Origin: Scedosporium boydii
Taxonomy: Eukaryota > Ascomycota > Sordariomycetes > Microascales > Microascaceae
Assembly: GCA_002221725.1 (NCBI GenBank)
Contig: NJFT01000004.1
Span: 1-64,000 of the forward strand
DNA: 64,000 nt
Direction of reading: 5' to 3'
Shown here: piece by piece, positions 29,855 through 38,045 of the stretch
Numbering within the stretch: position 1 is the stretch's first letter
Layout of the letters: every line of letters begins with the position of its first letter
Made by a program: the position numbers and the translations under genes
The notes under the pieces: model-generated
Database searches by the model: none
What the model was told of the DNA's origin: nothing
Seen by the model: only the letters and a program-made list of their open reading frames with translations

Positions 29855-30801
29855 TTTGGAGAAGAAGGGGGAGGGAAGAGAGGAGAGGATGGATGGATTT
29901 GATCTCAGATTGCTGGTAGTTTAGATGTTTAGATGCCCATTTGCTTGATTGTAAGTGAGAGATGCGAAGTCGAGGGGAAGGAACAGGCTAGAATGAAGTT
30001 ATCACCAAGTTTTAAAACGTCAACCGTCAAACGTCAAACCAGCCAGGAAAGCTTAACGCCTTTGCCGGAAAATAAAATGGAAGAAACGTCCCAACTGTAA
30101 AATATAATCGGGAAACGAAAAGAGAACCACCCAAAAAGAAGTAAGAGTAAGATCGATGAAACATATAACATATACACCCTCATCCTCATTGCCCATTATT
30201 ATCCAAGCGTGCCCCAAGCGATCAGAGCCAAGAACGGTGTGCCGCCCGTCTTTTTTGGCGAACCGGGAACAAACTTCCCGCCCCCCTTGCATCAGTGAAT
30301 CGCTAATCGTTCGCTTTCTTCCCCCCTCTCCCCTCCCTTTCGTGAGCAAACAACTGCATCACTTCTCGCCTCCGAATGGACGTGCGACGGTGACATATCG
30401 GACGCTGTAAGAGACAAGCGAGACGTGGCCTCCCTGGATCCATCCATTCCAAGATTCTCAACTTTCCCTCCTCTGCCTCATGACACCGGATTGCGCAGAA
30501 GGGAAGAGAAAAAAAAGAAGATGGTGAAGAAACCCCGAGAAAATAGAATGAAACATGCTGTGCATACCGTTGAGACGGAGGAAAAGGAGCAAGGGCCTTG
30601 AGGTGTCATCCGAAAATAGACCAAGCAGGAGGAGAGGCGAAGCAGCTCGGAGAAATCTCAAAGCTTAAACCTGACACCCGCCTCCTCCGAGGAATGCTAC
30701 CCTGTCTGACCATGACCGTCTCCGTGTCTGTGTTTCTGCCCGCGGTTCCGCATTTCCTTCAATCAAAGTAATCTCTGATGCAGACAAAGATAGAGGAAGG
30801 G

Positions 30802-30890
30802 AAAAAAATTAAAATAAAATAAAATAAAATAGTAATAATTAAAAAAAAAAAAATTAAAAAATAAATAAAAAAAAATAAAAAAGAAAGAAT
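30802..30890. repeat. A-rich tract with (AAAAT)n core
   Basis: About 90 bases almost free of G and C, including four copies of AAAAT at 30811-30830, then long A runs. On the minus strand it is a T-rich stretch directly after the inverted-repeat element. Confidence 0.8.
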
Positions 30891-30893
30891 ACC

Positions 30894-31033
30894 GGAACCT
30901 GCGTTGAGCCCAGCTGGTGAGAAAATCCGATTACATCCTGGTCCGACCTGGGGTCGAACTGGGAAGACCTCTAGCGGTTTCACCAGCTGCCTAGAGGGTG
31001 ACAGATTAACCAACTGCTCAGCTCGCAGGTTCC
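30894..31033. repeat. 140-bp nested inverted-repeat element (MITE- or SINE-like)
   Basis: The ends are a perfect 10-base inverted repeat (GGAACCTGCG at 30894-30903, CGCAGGTTCC at 31024-31033). Inside is a second perfect 10-base inverted repeat (CAGCTGGTGA at 30911-30920, TCACCAGCTG at 30980-30989). The minus strand carries sequences resembling Pol III boxes: TGAGCAGTTGGTTAATC (A-like) and AGTTCGACCCC (B-like), followed by the T-rich tract. It does not fold as a proper tRNA because no T-arm adjoins the 3' end. A degenerate tRNA-derived SINE or a short foldback element is the best description. Confidence 0.5.
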
Positions 31034-31842
31034 TTGAAGATCCTCGGAATTGTCTGGGTCTATATAGTTAACTCGAGGTTTTGATGAGGTTGGGCTGCGG
31101 TGGCTCCTTCCTTGATGGTGCTCTTTCCTTGCACGCGAGCGGATGTTGGACGTTGGGCCGCTCCTTCCGCGGATGGATCCCGAAGTTTAAGAGCGAGGCA
31201 GAGGTTTGGAGAACATTGAAGTGATCTCTGACCTCGGTATAAGCATTGGGATATTTGGTACTTCGACCTGATATCACTCAGCCTTGTACATCCTCTGGTT
31301 GGCTTCAAGAGCTGTCCTGTCCCTGATTGATACTCCCCTCTATGCCACGTTATATCCCAGATTCCTTTTCTTCCTTCTCACCAACGGCGGCGCTTCTTCG
31401 AAGAGGAGGACGGACTCTCAAGTTAATAAAGCCAGCTATGAAATATCCCCTTCAAGTCCTCTATATATAATAGACGTTAGGTTTTTTTTTTAACTAAGAG
31501 TAGAATGGGTAGGCTAGCAGCTAGCTTGCTACGATCACAAGCTACTTGGATATTGTGTAAGATCAAATGTCTTCAAATAGCACGAGACACGAGACTATCA
31601 ATATATATTATGTGTATCTAACCCTCAATACCACTCTCCTTCCTTCTAGACTCTTAGAAATATTTTCATTGGGAGTTACTACTGTTTCTACTACTACGCC
31701 GCTCGGCAGCCATAGCCACAGGAAATTATCGAACACACCTGGCATCTCACAGTTCATTTCCTCGAAGAGCTCCGGCCATCCGATCATTGGGGCTTGCAAC
31801 AGACACAAACCTCCTCGCCTCACATCCTCACCGTCACTCACC

Positions 31843-32940
31843 ATGGCACCCGTAACTTGCTCTGACAAGCCTCGCTGCACGGACGAGGACTCCAATACCC
31901 TCCCCAAGAACAAAGCACAATCCAAGCCGCTGGAGCAATTCCACTACTTTCCTCGGCTTCCCCCAGAGCTCCGCATTATCATCTGGGAGATGGCCTTACG
32001 CCCTCGCGGTATAAGTGGCGTCCATTACTTCTCCCTCTTCAGCAGCAGCAAAGAGCATCCGCTCCGGGATCTATCCATCGCCAACCGTTGGCCCAGCAAG
32101 TCCGGGAAAGTATATGGAGAACTTCTCGGCAACCTCCTTAACACCGAGCACAGAATAGCTGCTCCGAGAGTTGTCGCTCGTGGCGATTCGTCTCGGCCTC
32201 AGCCTCAGCACTCGTGGTTCAAAGGCAACCCGTCACTCTACGCATGGGACGCGGGCCTCTTCAACGCATGCCGAGAATCAAGGTGGATCATCGTCACCAA
32301 GGCTCTAACGCGGAGTCGTCTGAGTTGGGATGGGTGGGTCGTTGAAGGGCGCCACGACGAGGACGGTAAAATAATGCCACTTCGAGGCCACTCTTACCGT
32401 GACCTGCATTGTTTCCAGTTCGACCGCGGGCTTATCGAGGCGGCTAAATATCTCCGTTGGAGTGTCCTCCTTTCTCAACTACCCTTCAACTACATGAGGC
32501 TCTGTCCGTCTAACATCGCCTTTGAATTTGACCCAAGCTGGCTCGTTTCCCTCCCCGAGGACGGCAATCTGGTCAACTACCTACGCAATGAACCCAGTCC
32601 CCGCGGCGTCGTTGCTCGCCTTCTCGATGCCTGGCATCACAACGAGGTCCCTAGCTATATCCAAATATGGCTTATTGACCGAAGCATACGCGTGAGCGAG
32701 GAAATAGAGGCGCGGATGCGCTACCATCCCTGGACGACGTTTTCTGATTTCCGGGAGACGTATGTTAGTGTCAAGAGACAGGATATCTTCGGAGACCTTG
32801 GTCTGAAGATGGAAAGAGATAGTGTGTTCTACTTGTGCAGGAGGTTTGCTCAATGGGGAACATCGGTGCTGCCGTGGCGGAACTCCCTGGGTGTTTTGGC
32901 CTGCCTGCCCAGAGAGAACGCAGACAACGATGAATCATGA
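31843..32940 (+). CDS. 2EXR-domain protein, 365 aa
   Basis: Start chosen at the ATG at 31843 (CACCATGGCACC, a strong context); the frame is open back to an ATG at 31567, but that part looks noncoding. Single exon. Near residue 33 it shows FHYFPRLPPELRIIIWEMAL, the hallmark of the fungal 2EXR domain (F-x-x-LP-x-E-[IL]-R-x-x-I-W). It also has SLYAWDAGLFNACRESRWI, the matching later motif (hallmark A-C-R-E-S-R). These proteins are abundant and often expanded in Pezizomycotina. Their biochemical role is unknown, though the opening resembles an F-box. The gene sits in the repeat-bearing region next to the micro-exon gene. Confidence 0.82.
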   Translation: MAPVTCSDKPRCTDEDSNTLPKNKAQSKPLEQFHYFPRLPPELRIIIWEMALRPRGISGVHYFSLFSSSKEHPLRDLSIANRWPSKSGKVYGELLGNLLNTEHRIAAPRVVARGDSSRPQPQHSWFKGNPSLYAWDAGLFNACRESRWIIVTKALTRSRLSWDGWVVEGRHDEDGKIMPLRGHSYRDLHCFQFDRGLIEAAKYLRWSVLLSQLPFNYMRLCPSNIAFEFDPSWLVSLPEDGNLVNYLRNEPSPRGVVARLLDAWHHNEVPSYIQIWLIDRSIRVSEEIEARMRYHPWTTFSDFRETYVSVKRQDIFGDLGLKMERDSVFYLCRRFAQWGTSVLPWRNSLGVLACLPRENADNDES

Positions 32941-33505
32941 ATAGAATCGCCTTCTACTTCTGATCTTGTGATATCTTGTGATTCTAAGCATAAGGTAGGT
33001 GCGTTGAGTTGGTGTGTATTGTGTAGGCACGTGGATGCATGTGGTCCCTTGAATTTCAGGAAGCCGTGAACAAGCTCAACACATCAATTGATATGAGTGG
33101 AAGGAAGATTGCAACCTAGAACGAGGCCGGAAGGAGCTCGGAAGGAAACCGACAGGAACCTTGGATATATCGACGATGTAGACTTTTGACCGCATCATCT
33201 ATAAATAGGATAGATATCCAAATCCTCTCCTCAACTCCCCCCCCCCCCTCCTTTTTACACCACCACTTCCCCCAGCCGCCCCCAGACCCCCTCTCCGTGA
33301 TAACGTAAGTGCAACCATCCCGCCCGCCCCTGGAACCGCCCCGGGGGAGGGGCCCCGGATGGCCCCTATGTGCCCCGGCCTGATTCCAACGGGGCAGCAC
33401 CGTGAGCCAAGACTACAAAGACTACAATGTAAGTTGTCCCCTTATCTTTGCTGTCTATCGACAGTTGGCTAATATTGACTGTGGCCCTGATGCTCAGCGG
33501 CTACC
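32941..33505. other. promoter and 5' leader of the micro-exon gene
   Basis: Contains the TATA box at 33200, a run of twelve C (33237-33248) and two probable leader introns: 33305-33395 (GTAAGT..GGCAG) and 33429-33497 (GTAAGT..CTCAG). If both are removed, the ATG at 33506 is the first in the transcript. An in-frame ATG at 33359 would add 26 residues if the first intron is kept. Confidence 0.5.
33200..33207 (+). promoter_or_regulatory. TATA box (TATAAATA)
   Basis: A perfect TATAAATA followed by a pyrimidine-rich leader starting about 30 bases downstream. Well placed to drive the micro-exon gene. Such a clear TATA box is not seen before the other genes here. Confidence 0.6.
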
Positions 33506-35061
33506 ATGGAGACAGTGAGCGCTCACTCAGTGCCTCTATTGATATCTGTTATACTAAGATCCCCCAGTCGTCCCGCCAGCCCGTCCAACTCTCCGACACC
33601 ATATAGCCCGCCGGCCCCCCAGAGTCCGAAGGGCGCGAGCGCCCGAAAGTAAGCATACCTCGAGATGATAGGGATGACCTTTGCCAGTGTACTTGAACCT
33701 TGGCTCACAAGGGGCTTTGTTGATAGATCCACTTCGCGGAGGTACTTGATGCTCGTCACATCCCCTTGACTTCAGAACCTAGCACTAACAGATGCTTGTC
33801 CCTATCTAGTGGCATCAGGAAATGGCTGCAGTAAGTGGTGTATCTTTCTCCCTTTTACCCAATTGAATTATGGTCGAGGATGATACTCACCATACATTTA
33901 CACAGGAGGCCAGACGGAAAGCGCAGGTAACGACTTGGATTTTGCAACTAATGTATCGTTTACTTATAAATCGATACTAACAAGCCTGTGTGATGTTATA
34001 GGCCAAGCTCTTGGACGCTGGTGTAAGTTATAGCACGACATTGTTTCTACCGATTTTGTAATATACTAACATTGGGTTTAGAAAGTCGAGAAGAGGGTGA
34101 GGGTAGGCCTACTCCCAGTATCTTGTATTTCAATAGCTAACTTTTGGCATGAGAGCCAAGTTGAAGGTCAGTTTTCCACGATCTCATAGCCGAGCTCAAT
34201 CATTTAAAACTTGAAACCCAATTTCCCTAGTGCTTCGTCTTTTGATGCTGACCTGCTTGACTTGTATTAAAGTCGTTACAAGAAGACCGGAATGTAAGTC
34301 ACCACAACCTCATCACCTTACACAGCCATCAACCCCCAAGAAGAGACAGGATTCAACTAACACCCTCTTGCAGAGCTTGAGAAGTCAGGCAAAAGTAAGG
34401 ATCCTTATGCTATAGATTCCCTACTAAGTGCTAAGGCTGATCTTCTCTAGCTCAATCGCCGTGCGTTCGCTACCCATCTCGAAGCCGCCCATTCCCGACA
34501 GAAGGCAGACAGGATCTACTCCCCAGTACGGACAATGCGGTCACCATCAAACAACAACATACGTGACTTGGGAGATTATACACTCTTGCACATGTATCGT
34601 CCTCGACAACCGGCCCGCTTTGGCATAACGGAATATCTAAGATCCGCTCGGGTTCCTTTGAATGTGAAGGGTTCATGGAATTAGTCAAAGGAAGAGCAGG
34701 AAACAGAGGAGGGAGCTGTAAGCAACTAGTGCACCCCAAGACCAAGATGGTCCAGATGCCATGACCATTTTCAACTTACATGATGACAGCGGCTGGCCGA
34801 AGAGACGGCTGCTGAGCCACCCATTCCCACCGCCGAGCCGCCGAGCCACCGGCCGCCAGCTAACTCCCCGAAAACACTGCAGGCCTACCCCTTCCGGATG
34901 CTACTGGTAACGAGACGGATATCAGTGCCGCTCGGTCCGGCAACATCGACTAACGGCTGCAACAGCAGTGGCCAATGGTCAAATACCGGAACCCCGCTGG
35001 ACCCGCTGCGGAACTCCTTCAGAATGTTGGGAGGGAGGGGGGCAGACATAGGATCTGTTGA
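33506..35061 (+). CDS. micro-exon gene encoding a charged, probably coiled-coil protein
   Basis: Not a recognised family. Coding exons by eye: 33506-33514, 33607-33648, 33727-33741, 33810-33830, 33906-33926, 34002-34022, 34082-34096, 34273-34293, 34374-34394, 34451-34525, 34685-34717, 34790-34906 and 34966-35061. All are phase 0 and multiples of three, and together they give an open 168-codon frame ending TGT TGA. Five exons are exactly 21 bases, one heptad each: for example WHQEMAA (33810), AKLLDAG (34002) and SLRSQAK (34374). Introns are 51-180 bases, several with perfect TACTAAC or CTAAC branch points. The protein starts METPAGPPESEG. Its middle is rich in A, K, R, E, Q and L as in a coiled coil, then comes a Glu-rich exon, a Pro-rich exon and a basic end (WPMVKYRNPAGPAAELL). 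There is no signal peptide. Uncertain points: the 33515-33606 and 34526-34684 introns, exon 7 (may extend to 34102), and a possible 13-base exon at 34154-34166. Confidence 0.6.
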
Positions 35062-35873
35062 TGAATGGAAAACAATGGCGGAGGCACAAATAGAAGCTTC
35101 CCGATGAAATGGTAACTGAGGAAGCGGCCTTCCGAGAACACGCACTTCCCTGGGATCGCACATGACAAAGAGAGGGCTGTACCAAGTACGACCGAAATTG
35201 AATGATGAATTGACCATCATTGGGAAATTGAATACCATGATATTGATTCTTGATGAATTGTGTAAACGGGAAACGGAAAACAAGGAAACAAGAAACGAAG
35301 CCTTCCACGTGGAACTCATCCTCTTCCGTCCCGTAACCCCCTCACTCCTTCCATTCTGCAGGGAACAGGTGCCCGGCCCACTGCCACTTCCATCACCGCC
35401 TTGGTAACATGTGAAGCGAGCGAAGCAAGCAGACCCCATGGCGATGAATCATGAACGGACGATCCGAGCTTCCCCAACTGGGAAGGGAACTACACATCTT
35501 GAAGACACACGAAGACACACGGAGACACACTTCTTATTCGACTAATTTCATTGAACCCATCTACCTCATTATCATAAAACGAGAAACTAAAGTACAATGA
35601 GCCTTGTCCTCGAAACTTTCAAAAAAAAAAGATCATCGAGTCCAAGCAGACATGATGTTATCGATGTAACTTATCGAAACCCCTGCCTGATTCCTGACGA
35701 GCGATGGGTAAAAATCAAAAGGAAAAATAAAACATAAAGTTTCCGTCAAACTCCTGTAAAGCCACTTTTTGTAGCCCTTTGCCTCCTGAGAACAATTCCC
35801 TTTCTGTATGAAACCGCTTTTTATTCGATTGCCTTGCCTTACAACGCCTTGCTGCTGCTTGGTACTGCTGCAT
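35062..35873. other. 3' flanks of the convergent micro-exon and HSP90 genes
   Basis: Noncoding. Holds three near-perfect 10-base repeats at 35501-35530. The part next to 35873 is the HSP90 3' untranslated region. Confidence 0.55.
35501..35530. repeat. three tandem copies of a 10-base unit (GAAGACACAC)
   Basis: GAAGACACAC, GAAGACACAC, GGAGACACAC in a row. A short satellite with no evident role. Confidence 0.85.
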
Positions 35874-38045
35874 TTAGTCAACCTCCTCCATGGCGCTGTC
35901 ACCAGTCTCGGCAGCAGTGGCGCCGGCCTCGGGGGTCTCGTCGTCGGTCTTGACCTCATCCTCGATGTTGAGGCCGACCTGGACGAGCTTGTGGATGCGC
36001 TCGGCGAAGCTGGCGGGCTCCTCGATGGTGAAGCCGGAGACGAGGAGGGAGGTCTCGTAGAGGAGCTGGACGATGGACTTGACGGTGCGGTCGTTCTCGC
36101 CGTCGGCCTCGACCTTGGCCTTGAGCTCCTTGATGATGGGAGACTTGGGAGAAATCTCGAAAGTCTTCTTGGACGACATGTAGCTGGACATGGAGGTGTC
36201 ACGGAGGGCCTGAGCCTTCATGATACGCTCCATGTTAGCGGACCAACCGAACTGGCCAGTGCGGATAGCGCAGGGGGAAAGGCCGAGCTTGTGGCTGACA
36301 ACGACCTTCTCGACCTTGTCGCCGAGAATGTTCTTGAGCGACTTGGCGAGGGACTCGTACTCCTTCTCCTCCTCCTCGCGCTTCTTCTTCTCCTCGTCGG
36401 TCTCCTCGAGCTCGAAGTCCTTGGTGATGTCGACGAGCTTCTTGCCCTCGAACTCCTTGAGCTGGGTCATGGCGTACTCGTCAATGGGGTCGACGAGGAA
36501 GAGAACCTCGAAGCCCTTCTCCTTGAGGGAGTCGAGGAAAGGAGACCTGGCGACGGCCTTAAGGGACTCGCCGGTGATGTAGTAGATGTTCTTCTGGTGC
36601 TCGGGCATGCGAGTGATGTAGTCGGCGAACGAGGTCTGGTCGTCACCAGACTTGGTGGAGTTGAAGCGGAGGAGCTTGGCAAGAGTGCCACGGTTCTGCG
36701 AATCCTCGTGGATACCGAGCTTGATGTTCTTGCTGAAGGCAGAGTAGAACTTGTCGAACTGCTCCTTGTCCTCGGCAATCTCGTTGAAGAGCTCGAGAGA
36801 CTTCTTGACAATGTTCTTCTTGATGACCTTCATGATCTTGTTCTGCTGAAGAGTCTCACGAGACAGGTTGAGAGGGAGATCCTCAGAGTCGACGACACCC
36901 TTGATGAAGCTGAGCCACTCGGGGACGATGTCGGTGGCGTCATCAGTGATGAAGACACGGCGGACGTAGAGCTTGATGTTGTTCTTGGTCTTCTTGGTCT
37001 CAAAGAGATCGAAGGGAGCGCGCTTGGGCACGAAGAGGATGGCGCGGAACTCGAGCTGACCCTCGACGGAGAAGTGCTTGACGGCAAGGTGGTCCTCCCA
37101 GTCGTTGGAGAGCGACTTGTAGAAAGAAGCGTACTCCTCTTGGGAAATGTCCTGGGGGTTGCGAGTCCAGATGGGCTTCTGCTTGTTGAGCTCCTCCTCC
37201 TCGATAGTGGTCTCCTTGATCTTCTTGGTCTTCTTCTTCTTCTCCTTCTCCTCCTCCTCCTCGTCGACCTCCTCGATCTTGGGCTTCTTGTCGTCCTCCT
37301 CGGTCACCTCAGTCTCCTCGGCCTCTTCATCGGGAACCTCCTTCTCGACCTCCTTCTGGACGTGGAGGTAGATGGGGTAGGAGATGAACTCGGAGTGCTT
37401 CTTGATGACATCCTTGATGCGGCTCTCGTTGAGGTAGTCAGTCTGCTCATCCTTGAGGTGGAGGATCATCTTGGTACCACGGCCGAGCTGCTTGCCCTCA
37501 GTGTCGGGCCTGATGGTGAAGGTGCCACCGGCACTAGACTCCCAGATGTACTGCTCGTCATCGTTGCTCTTGGAGACGACGGTCACCTTGTCGGCGACGA
37601 GGTAGGCGGAGTAGAAACCAACACCGAATTGACCAATCATGGAAACATCAGCGCCGGCAGTGAGGGCCTCCATGAACTGCTTGGTGCCAGACCTGGCGAT
37701 AGTGCCGAGGTTGTTGACCAAATCCTAGAGCGACAGTTAGAAATCAAGTCTGCTTGAACGGCAATTCGTTGATGGATTAAAACTTACAGCCTTGGTCATA
37801 CCATTACCGGTATCCTGGATGGTGAGGGTCTTGTTCTCCTTGTCAGGAATGATGTCGATCCTCAGATCCTTGCCGGTGTCGAGCACGGAAGGATCCGAGA
37901 GGGACTGGTATCGGATCTTGTCGAGGGCATCGGAGGCGTTGGAAACGAGCTCTCGAAGGAAGATCTCCTTGTTGGAGTAGACGGTGTTGATGATGAGGGA
38001 GAGAAGCTGAGAGATCTCAGCCTGGAACTCGAAGGTTTCAGACAT
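35874..38045 (-). CDS. HSP90: cytosolic HSP90 chaperone
   Basis: Two exons, 38045-37788 and 37724-35874, with a 63-base intron (GTAAGT..CTAG), give 702 aa, the normal length for fungal Hsp90/Hsp82. The N-terminal ATPase domain begins [18 protein letters not shown] and carries [19 protein letters not shown] and the nucleotide-binding DTGNGM. The intron falls right after that motif. [13 protein letters not shown] follows. A charged Glu/Lys linker lies near residues 215-265, then the client-binding middle domain and the dimerisation domain. The protein ends AMEEVD, the docking tail for TPR co-chaperones. It is a dimeric ATP-dependent chaperone maturing kinases, receptors and transcription factors. 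Candidate heat-shock elements lie upstream. The long open frames on the opposite strand are by-products of its codon bias. Confidence 0.98.

Follow-up and report, generated by a model that had tools for sequence, protein, structure and literature searches.

The stretch of DNA analysed, called the window below, covers positions 1 to 64 kb of contig C4 in an assembly of 42.9 Mb and 442 contigs. It was assigned to Scedosporium (Microascales) because the neighbouring Hsp90 reading frame (35874–37724, minus strand) is 100% identical to Hsp90 of Scedosporium apiospermum; identity to the Lomentospora prolificans protein is 96%. Within the genus, RNA-seq has been reported for S. aurantiacum MUT6114 and S. 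minutisporum MUT6113 (PMC10694956). The locus under study lies on the plus strand, where a TATA-like box can be read at 33200–33208, followed by a pyrimidine-rich stretch, and transcription probably starts near 33235. An earlier note on this DNA had pointed to a TATA box and had modelled a gene of 13 coding exons beginning at 33506. The box was found at 33200; the extent of the gene needs correction, as two well-signalled leader introns of the form GTAAGT...CAG, at 33305–33397 and 33429–33497 (+1.7 and +2.9 bits in the splice-signal parse), had been left out.

Upstream of the locus lies an open frame (31561–32940) that, judged by its motif, presumably resembles fungal 2EXR-type proteins; contigs C46, C408 and C394 carry DNA that is related to it but diverged. 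No micro-exon chain was found beside the C46 paralogue of this gene, where 8 kb were parsed and the maximum was 5.4 bits. At 30794–31199, a degenerate dispersed repeat with an A/T-rich left end has 23 diverged matches at other genomic sites (70–85% identity), a few of which may cover no more than the A/T-rich end; the repeat looks like an old, mutated mobile element. The locus had been placed in a repeat-bearing part of the window, which is loosely true of the surroundings, given this repeat at about 30.8–31.2 kb, but not of the locus itself: a search of its own genome with the locus DNA returned the locus as the sole match, so that it is single copy. Introner-like repeated introns were rejected, as the locus matches nothing but itself in the genome. 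Fungal contigs were also sought among viral and prokaryote collections by means of the neighbouring Hsp90, and none was found; the five loci matching Hsp90 in prokaryote genome contigs are bacterial or archaeal and at most 41% identical.

Splice signals mark out a chain of short exons independently of reading frame

As a splice reference, 23 introns were taken from this genome's TCP1 and P450 genes, a few of them doubtful assignments with low scores. Most (19 of 23) are 55–111 nt long, and GTAAGT-like donors and CTAAC-like branch sites predominate. The splice matrices were set by hand from these introns and general knowledge, and the strong introns of the locus look like those of the TCP1 and P450 genes. 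When 33201–35250 was parsed by splice signals with no reading-frame condition, the best parse scored 20.6 bits with 8 introns, compared with a best of 7.3 and a mean of 1.2 bits in 200 first-order Markov control sequences. The locus ranked first among 124 stretches of 2 kb covering both strands of the window, the next non-overlapping stretch reaching 13.1 bits. Among 524 overlapping stretches (≤2.05 kb) from other loci of the same genome, the top splice score was 14.1, and none of them contained more than one parsed micro-exon of ≤30 nt.

Three exons of exactly 21 nt were obtained from this frame-free parse (33810–33830, 34002–34022 and 34374–34394), the remaining internal exons being 31, 151, 212 and 267 nt long. 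Splice signals support at least three, and probably five, internal exons of up to about 36 nt within one predicted transcript. Both the splice score and the repeated length lend good support to the proposed chain of symmetric exons of 21 nt. The micro-exon core of the locus is not due to chance, and what lies here is very probably a genuine spliced gene that belongs to no recognised family.

The 21-nt length recurs along the locus

With looser thresholds, 17 acceptor-donor pairs 6–60 nt apart were found at the locus, several of them alternatives for one exon, and five pairs are exactly 21 nt (starts at 33810, 34002, 34082, 34273 and 34374). Comparison DNA from the same genome (530,480 bases outside the locus, counting both strands and including some overlapping loci) yielded 343 pairs, 7 of them 21 nt long, which corresponds to 0.027 per 2.05 kb. 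The resulting excess of about 185-fold is not a clean probability, because the thresholds and the length of 21 were picked after the locus had been seen. At strict thresholds four pairs are left at the locus; three measure 21 nt, and the fourth, of 12 nt, comes from a second acceptor within one of those exons. On the minus strand of the locus, 6 pairs pass the loose thresholds, where 1.3 are expected, and none passes the strict ones.

The whole genome was also scanned for the pattern of a CTAAC branch site, a YAG acceptor, a short exon and a GTAAGT donor. There were 138 matches compared with 219 in the reversed control, indicating that matches to this pattern are mostly chance. Among the matches listed, the locus has two, 192 bp apart; C103 has a pair 459 bp apart, and C85 is one site matched twice. 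The pattern is rarer than in the reversed control, as would be seen if short exons flanked by perfect sites were disfavoured.

The proposed micro-exons at 33810, 33906 and 34002 begin exactly 96 bp apart, provided that the doubtful middle one is accepted. Tandem duplication of an exon-intron unit was considered and rejected: the best local z-scores were 2.6 for unit pairs and 2.2 for intron pairs, and the highest global z among the listed pairs was 3.1, for one intron pair. These values were taken as no similarity because many pairs had been compared.

The rebuilt 13-exon model is best supported at its core

Rebuilding reproduced exactly the 13-exon chain of the earlier note, open for 168 codons including the stop from the ATG at 33506 to the TGA at 35061, with exon lengths of 9, 42, 15, 21, 21, 21, 15, 21, 21, 75, 33, 117 and 93 nt. 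Five exons measure exactly 21 bases, as had been stated; those of 21 bases or fewer number eight, not seven, when the 9-nt first exon is counted. All rebuilt exons are multiples of three by construction of the model, while three of the 21-nt exons were also found without a frame condition. Individual exons were then judged by their share of parses sampled at intron priors of 7 and 5; paired fractions below follow this order.

The likely CDS start is the 9-nt exon ATGGAGACA (33506–33514), which has the context ACCATGG and opens the best coding parse; the start at 33506 was used in 0.50 and 0.84 of sampled parses. It is followed by a 42-nt exon (PAGPPESEGRERPK, 33607–33648; 0.54 and 0.87) with a weak acceptor, the intron scoring −2.1 bits, and by a proposed but doubtful 15-nt exon, IHFAE (33727–33741; 0.29 and 0.71). 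The 21-nt micro-exon WHQEMAA (33810–33830; 0.58 and 0.72) has both a strong acceptor and a strong donor. The next 21-nt micro-exon proposed, EARRKAQ (33906–33926, donor GTAACG), is doubtful: at prior 5 its sampled fraction is 0.17, and at prior 7 it falls outside the 22 commonest sampled exons. Best supported of all is the 21-nt micro-exon AKLLDAG (34002–34022; 0.90 and 0.97). At 34082 a strong acceptor is combined with two possible donors, which leaves the 3' end ambiguous between a 21-nt micro-exon, KVEKRVR, ending at 34102 (0.41 and 0.49), and a 15-nt exon ending at 34096 (0.36 and 0.42), the form in the rebuilt model. Two further 21-nt micro-exons follow: SLQEDRN (34273–34293), with a strong donor and a weaker AAG acceptor, was sampled in 0.15 of parses at prior 5 and lies outside the 22 commonest exons at prior 7, and SLRSQAK (34374–34394; 0.38 and 0.39) has a strong acceptor and a fair donor.

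Farther downstream, a 75-nt exon (LNRRAFATHLEAAHSRQKADRIYSP, 34451–34525) has a supported acceptor (0.42 at prior 5) and may extend through 34717; the 33-nt exon SKEEQETEEGA (34685–34717; 0.37 at prior 5) ends at a good donor, GTAAGC. The 3' coding part of the earlier model (34790–35061) is uncertain; it consists of 34790–34906, an intron at 34907–34968 and 34969–35061, and is open to the TGA at 35061. The two unusual GTAACG donors of that model lie in a shared 15-nt stretch of 80% identity (33926–33940 and 34906–34920).

The best symmetric splits of random introns gave a measure of what chance can produce. As many as 65 of 500 random introns could be split as well as around 33727–33741, and 154 of 500 as well as around 33906–33926, so that neither exon has splice-signal support of its own. 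A candidate 6-nt exon at 34161–34166 fared somewhat better than these two doubtful exons (13 of 500). The intron at 34526–34684 scores poorly, at −8.5 bits. The exon layout of the earlier note is confirmed in part, and not as stated for these weaker parts.

Whole parses were compared in the same framework. At prior 7, a 14-exon version of the model scored 16.0 bits, against 20.6 for the non-coding parse and 27.9 for the best coding parse; at prior 5, the corresponding values were 46.0, 38.4 and 50.1 bits. With prior 7, the best coding parse has 48 codons and stops at 34189; with prior 5, it runs for 158 codons to 35061, omits exon 33906–33926 and replaces 34273–34293 and 34374–34394 by exons of 11 and 10 nt. 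The stop at 34189 was the commonest frame end among sampled parses (0.52 and 0.30), and that at 35061 was reached in 0.03 and 0.22. In its exact form, the 13-exon model probably errs at several weakly signalled exons.

Chance alone would mean that free choice among weak splice sites threads an open frame through any sequence. The exons 33727–33741 and 33906–33926 are indeed no better than chance splits, and most matches in the genome to the pattern of branch site, acceptor, short exon and donor can be put down to chance, but the splice score obtained without a frame condition and the set of five 21-nt pairs far exceed their controls. Chance is a highly improbable account of the locus, being very unlikely for the core though not for the weak exons.

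The coding reading is favoured over a non-coding transcript

With both leader introns removed and a start assumed at about 33235, the spliced leader is 109 nt long and contains no ATG before ACCATGG at 33506. When the 13 exons are joined, frame 0 alone is open, the other frames having 1 and 5 stops. The codon score of the 14-exon model (171 codons) is +13.9 bits in frame 0 and −29.3 and −27.0 bits in the others. A parse combining splice and codon signals preferred coding by 7.3 bits at prior 7 and by 11.8 bits at prior 5. Controls in which the exons were shuffled and the introns kept matched or exceeded this gain in 28 of 400 and 42 of 400 cases at prior 7, and in 8 of 400 and 10 of 400 at prior 5. 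Synonymous codon choice by itself did not point to coding, at −0.9 bits for the model as a whole and −7.3 bits for exons 4–10. The model scores 0.08 per codon, compared with a median of 0.22 for 49-codon pieces of real genes in this genome, whose 5% point is −0.07. An alternative frame from the same AUG, with the intron 33515–33606 retained, was rejected at −12.5 bits over 47 codons, and a chimera carrying it found no relative in a protein search.

A spliced long non-coding RNA, in which the introns are real and the open frame coincidental, would account for micro-exons lacking a synonymous codon signal, for the 2–11% of exon-shuffled controls that reach the coding gain and for the failure of protein searches to find a relative. 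On the other hand, it offers no evident reason why five exons should be exactly 21 nt, a multiple of three, and it sits poorly with an assumed leader that is AUG-free up to ACCATGG and with a single open frame. We regard it as somewhat unlikely.

Fungal host genes of intronic small nucleolar RNAs are described, in the cited passages, as having little coding potential (PMC2780460, PMC3596301), and the many introns and weak coding signal of the locus recall them; dropping the weak exons would also leave introns of 161–171 nt. Unlike such hosts, however, the locus has introns in which no box C/D snoRNA was found. In a scan allowing one mismatch in the C-box and requiring an exact D-box, the only pairs in 33200–35200 were 33297/33380 (stem 0) and 35058/35116 (stem 3), neither of which falls wholly within a model intron. 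No Rfam match was obtained at E up to 5 in 32950–35600 or at gathering score in the window, and the folding z-scores of 15 intron stretches, from −1.9 to +1.0, were not unusual. For box H/ACA snoRNAs, the general Rfam scan of 32950–35600 gave no match, and the intron folds were not unusual. Given the box C/D, Rfam and folding results, a snoRNA host gene is a very improbable explanation.

The low codon score, together with the single copy, the missing relatives and a chain in which some splice sites are excellent and others very poor, would also suit the remnant of a decaying micro-exon gene, whose core exons retain their signals while others have lost theirs. Against this stand the intact splice signals of the core and the intact AUG context, and we consider decay quite unlikely. 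Overall, the coding reading of the locus is favoured, not proven, and a coding origin, a decayed gene included, appears likely.

The predicted product is charged and helix-prone

The part of the product encoded by the micro-exons (exons 4–11) contains 37% D/E/K/R and has a mean helix propensity of 1.13, which makes it charged and helix-prone. The earlier note had read the chain as one heptad of a coiled coil per exon. The exon length fits this proposal, and a heptad stripe runs through positions 2 and 6 in every 21-nt exon; the heptad pattern itself is weak, with p = 0.005 for one picked version (six heptads without the 6-nt exon) and p = 0.13–0.71 for four other versions. By eye, no hydrophobic stretch is present at the start of the product, METPAGPPESEGRERPK.

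No Pfam family matched the 171-aa model in a profile check at E up to 10, and two protein searches (188 and 15 candidates) yielded no relative at E up to 10. The database searched includes at least the Hsp90 proteins of S. apiospermum and L. prolificans, and it reaches just relatives of similar length with common five-residue words. For this reason, and as automatic gene sets may miss such exons, the absence of relatives is weak evidence.

Comparison with known micro-exon systems

Schistosomes have micro-exon genes (MEGs), and the locus as modelled shares with them a chain of short symmetric exons in one gene. Schistosome MEG products typically carry a signal peptide, whereas the locus shows by eye no hydrophobic start of that kind and is single copy. 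The bicycle genes of aphids, in the passages cited, have about 17 exons on average, many of them unusually small internal exons and nearly all of these in phase 2, and they form a family whose relatives are hard to find by sequence (PMC9168663). The locus as modelled has in common with them numerous tiny internal exons of a single phase and elusive sequence relatives, but it is in phase 0 throughout and the bicycle genes are a family.

Among fungi, NACHT-ankyrin genes of Tuber melanosporum use codon-sized (3 bp) micro-exons, according to the passages in which PMC3689799, PMC10197012 and PMC4986451 cite them. They resemble the locus in being fungal genes with many frame-keeping micro-exons and differ in that their exons are 3 bp within an NLR family, while the exons here are 21 nt, with no Pfam domain and no second copy. 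In Trichoderma virens, Xlr2 is presented in the cited part of the source as a micro-exon switch in a large transcription factor (PMC11121469); it is likewise a micro-exon of a filamentous ascomycete, though a switch and not a chain. The earlier statement that no fungal family of this layout has been described must consequently be narrowed, since the truffle genes provide a fungal precedent for micro-exons as such. No fungal gene with a run of 21-nt exons was found in the micro-exon literature searched, a body that covers few subscription papers.

A probable orphan micro-exon gene

The best reading of the locus is an orphan micro-exon gene that had been partly mis-modelled. That it is a real, single-copy, spliced RNA polymerase II gene with at least three exons of 21 nt, most likely encoding a small helix-prone protein, we hold to be moderately probable. 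RNA polymerase II would transcribe the locus, and splicing would divide the pre-mRNA into many short segments, of which at least three, and probably five, would be exons measuring exactly 21 nt. Translation would begin at 33506 in frame 0, and the product would most likely be a small, charged, helix-prone protein of no recognised family. Because the introns fall between codons, skipping any 21-nt exon would drop seven residues and keep the frame, and exon skipping might tune the length of the product in this way. The more specific proposal, an orphan heptad-exon gene of an ascomycete whose 21-nt exons are included or skipped by the spliceosome to fix how long a helical rod becomes, and hence a modular, splice-tuned coiled coil, is unlikely.

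The splice-signal chain and the recurrent 21-nt length are observed here directly. If the locus is transcribed as read, it would represent a previously undescribed 21-nt form among micro-exon genes. Filamentous ascomycete genes are usually poor in introns, and exons this small tend to be missed by automatic annotation, so that such genes could be systematically overlooked. Should transcripts confirm the chain, the locus would offer a small system in which to examine how the spliceosome of a fungus recognises successive 21-nt exons and whether exon inclusion can tune the length of a helix.
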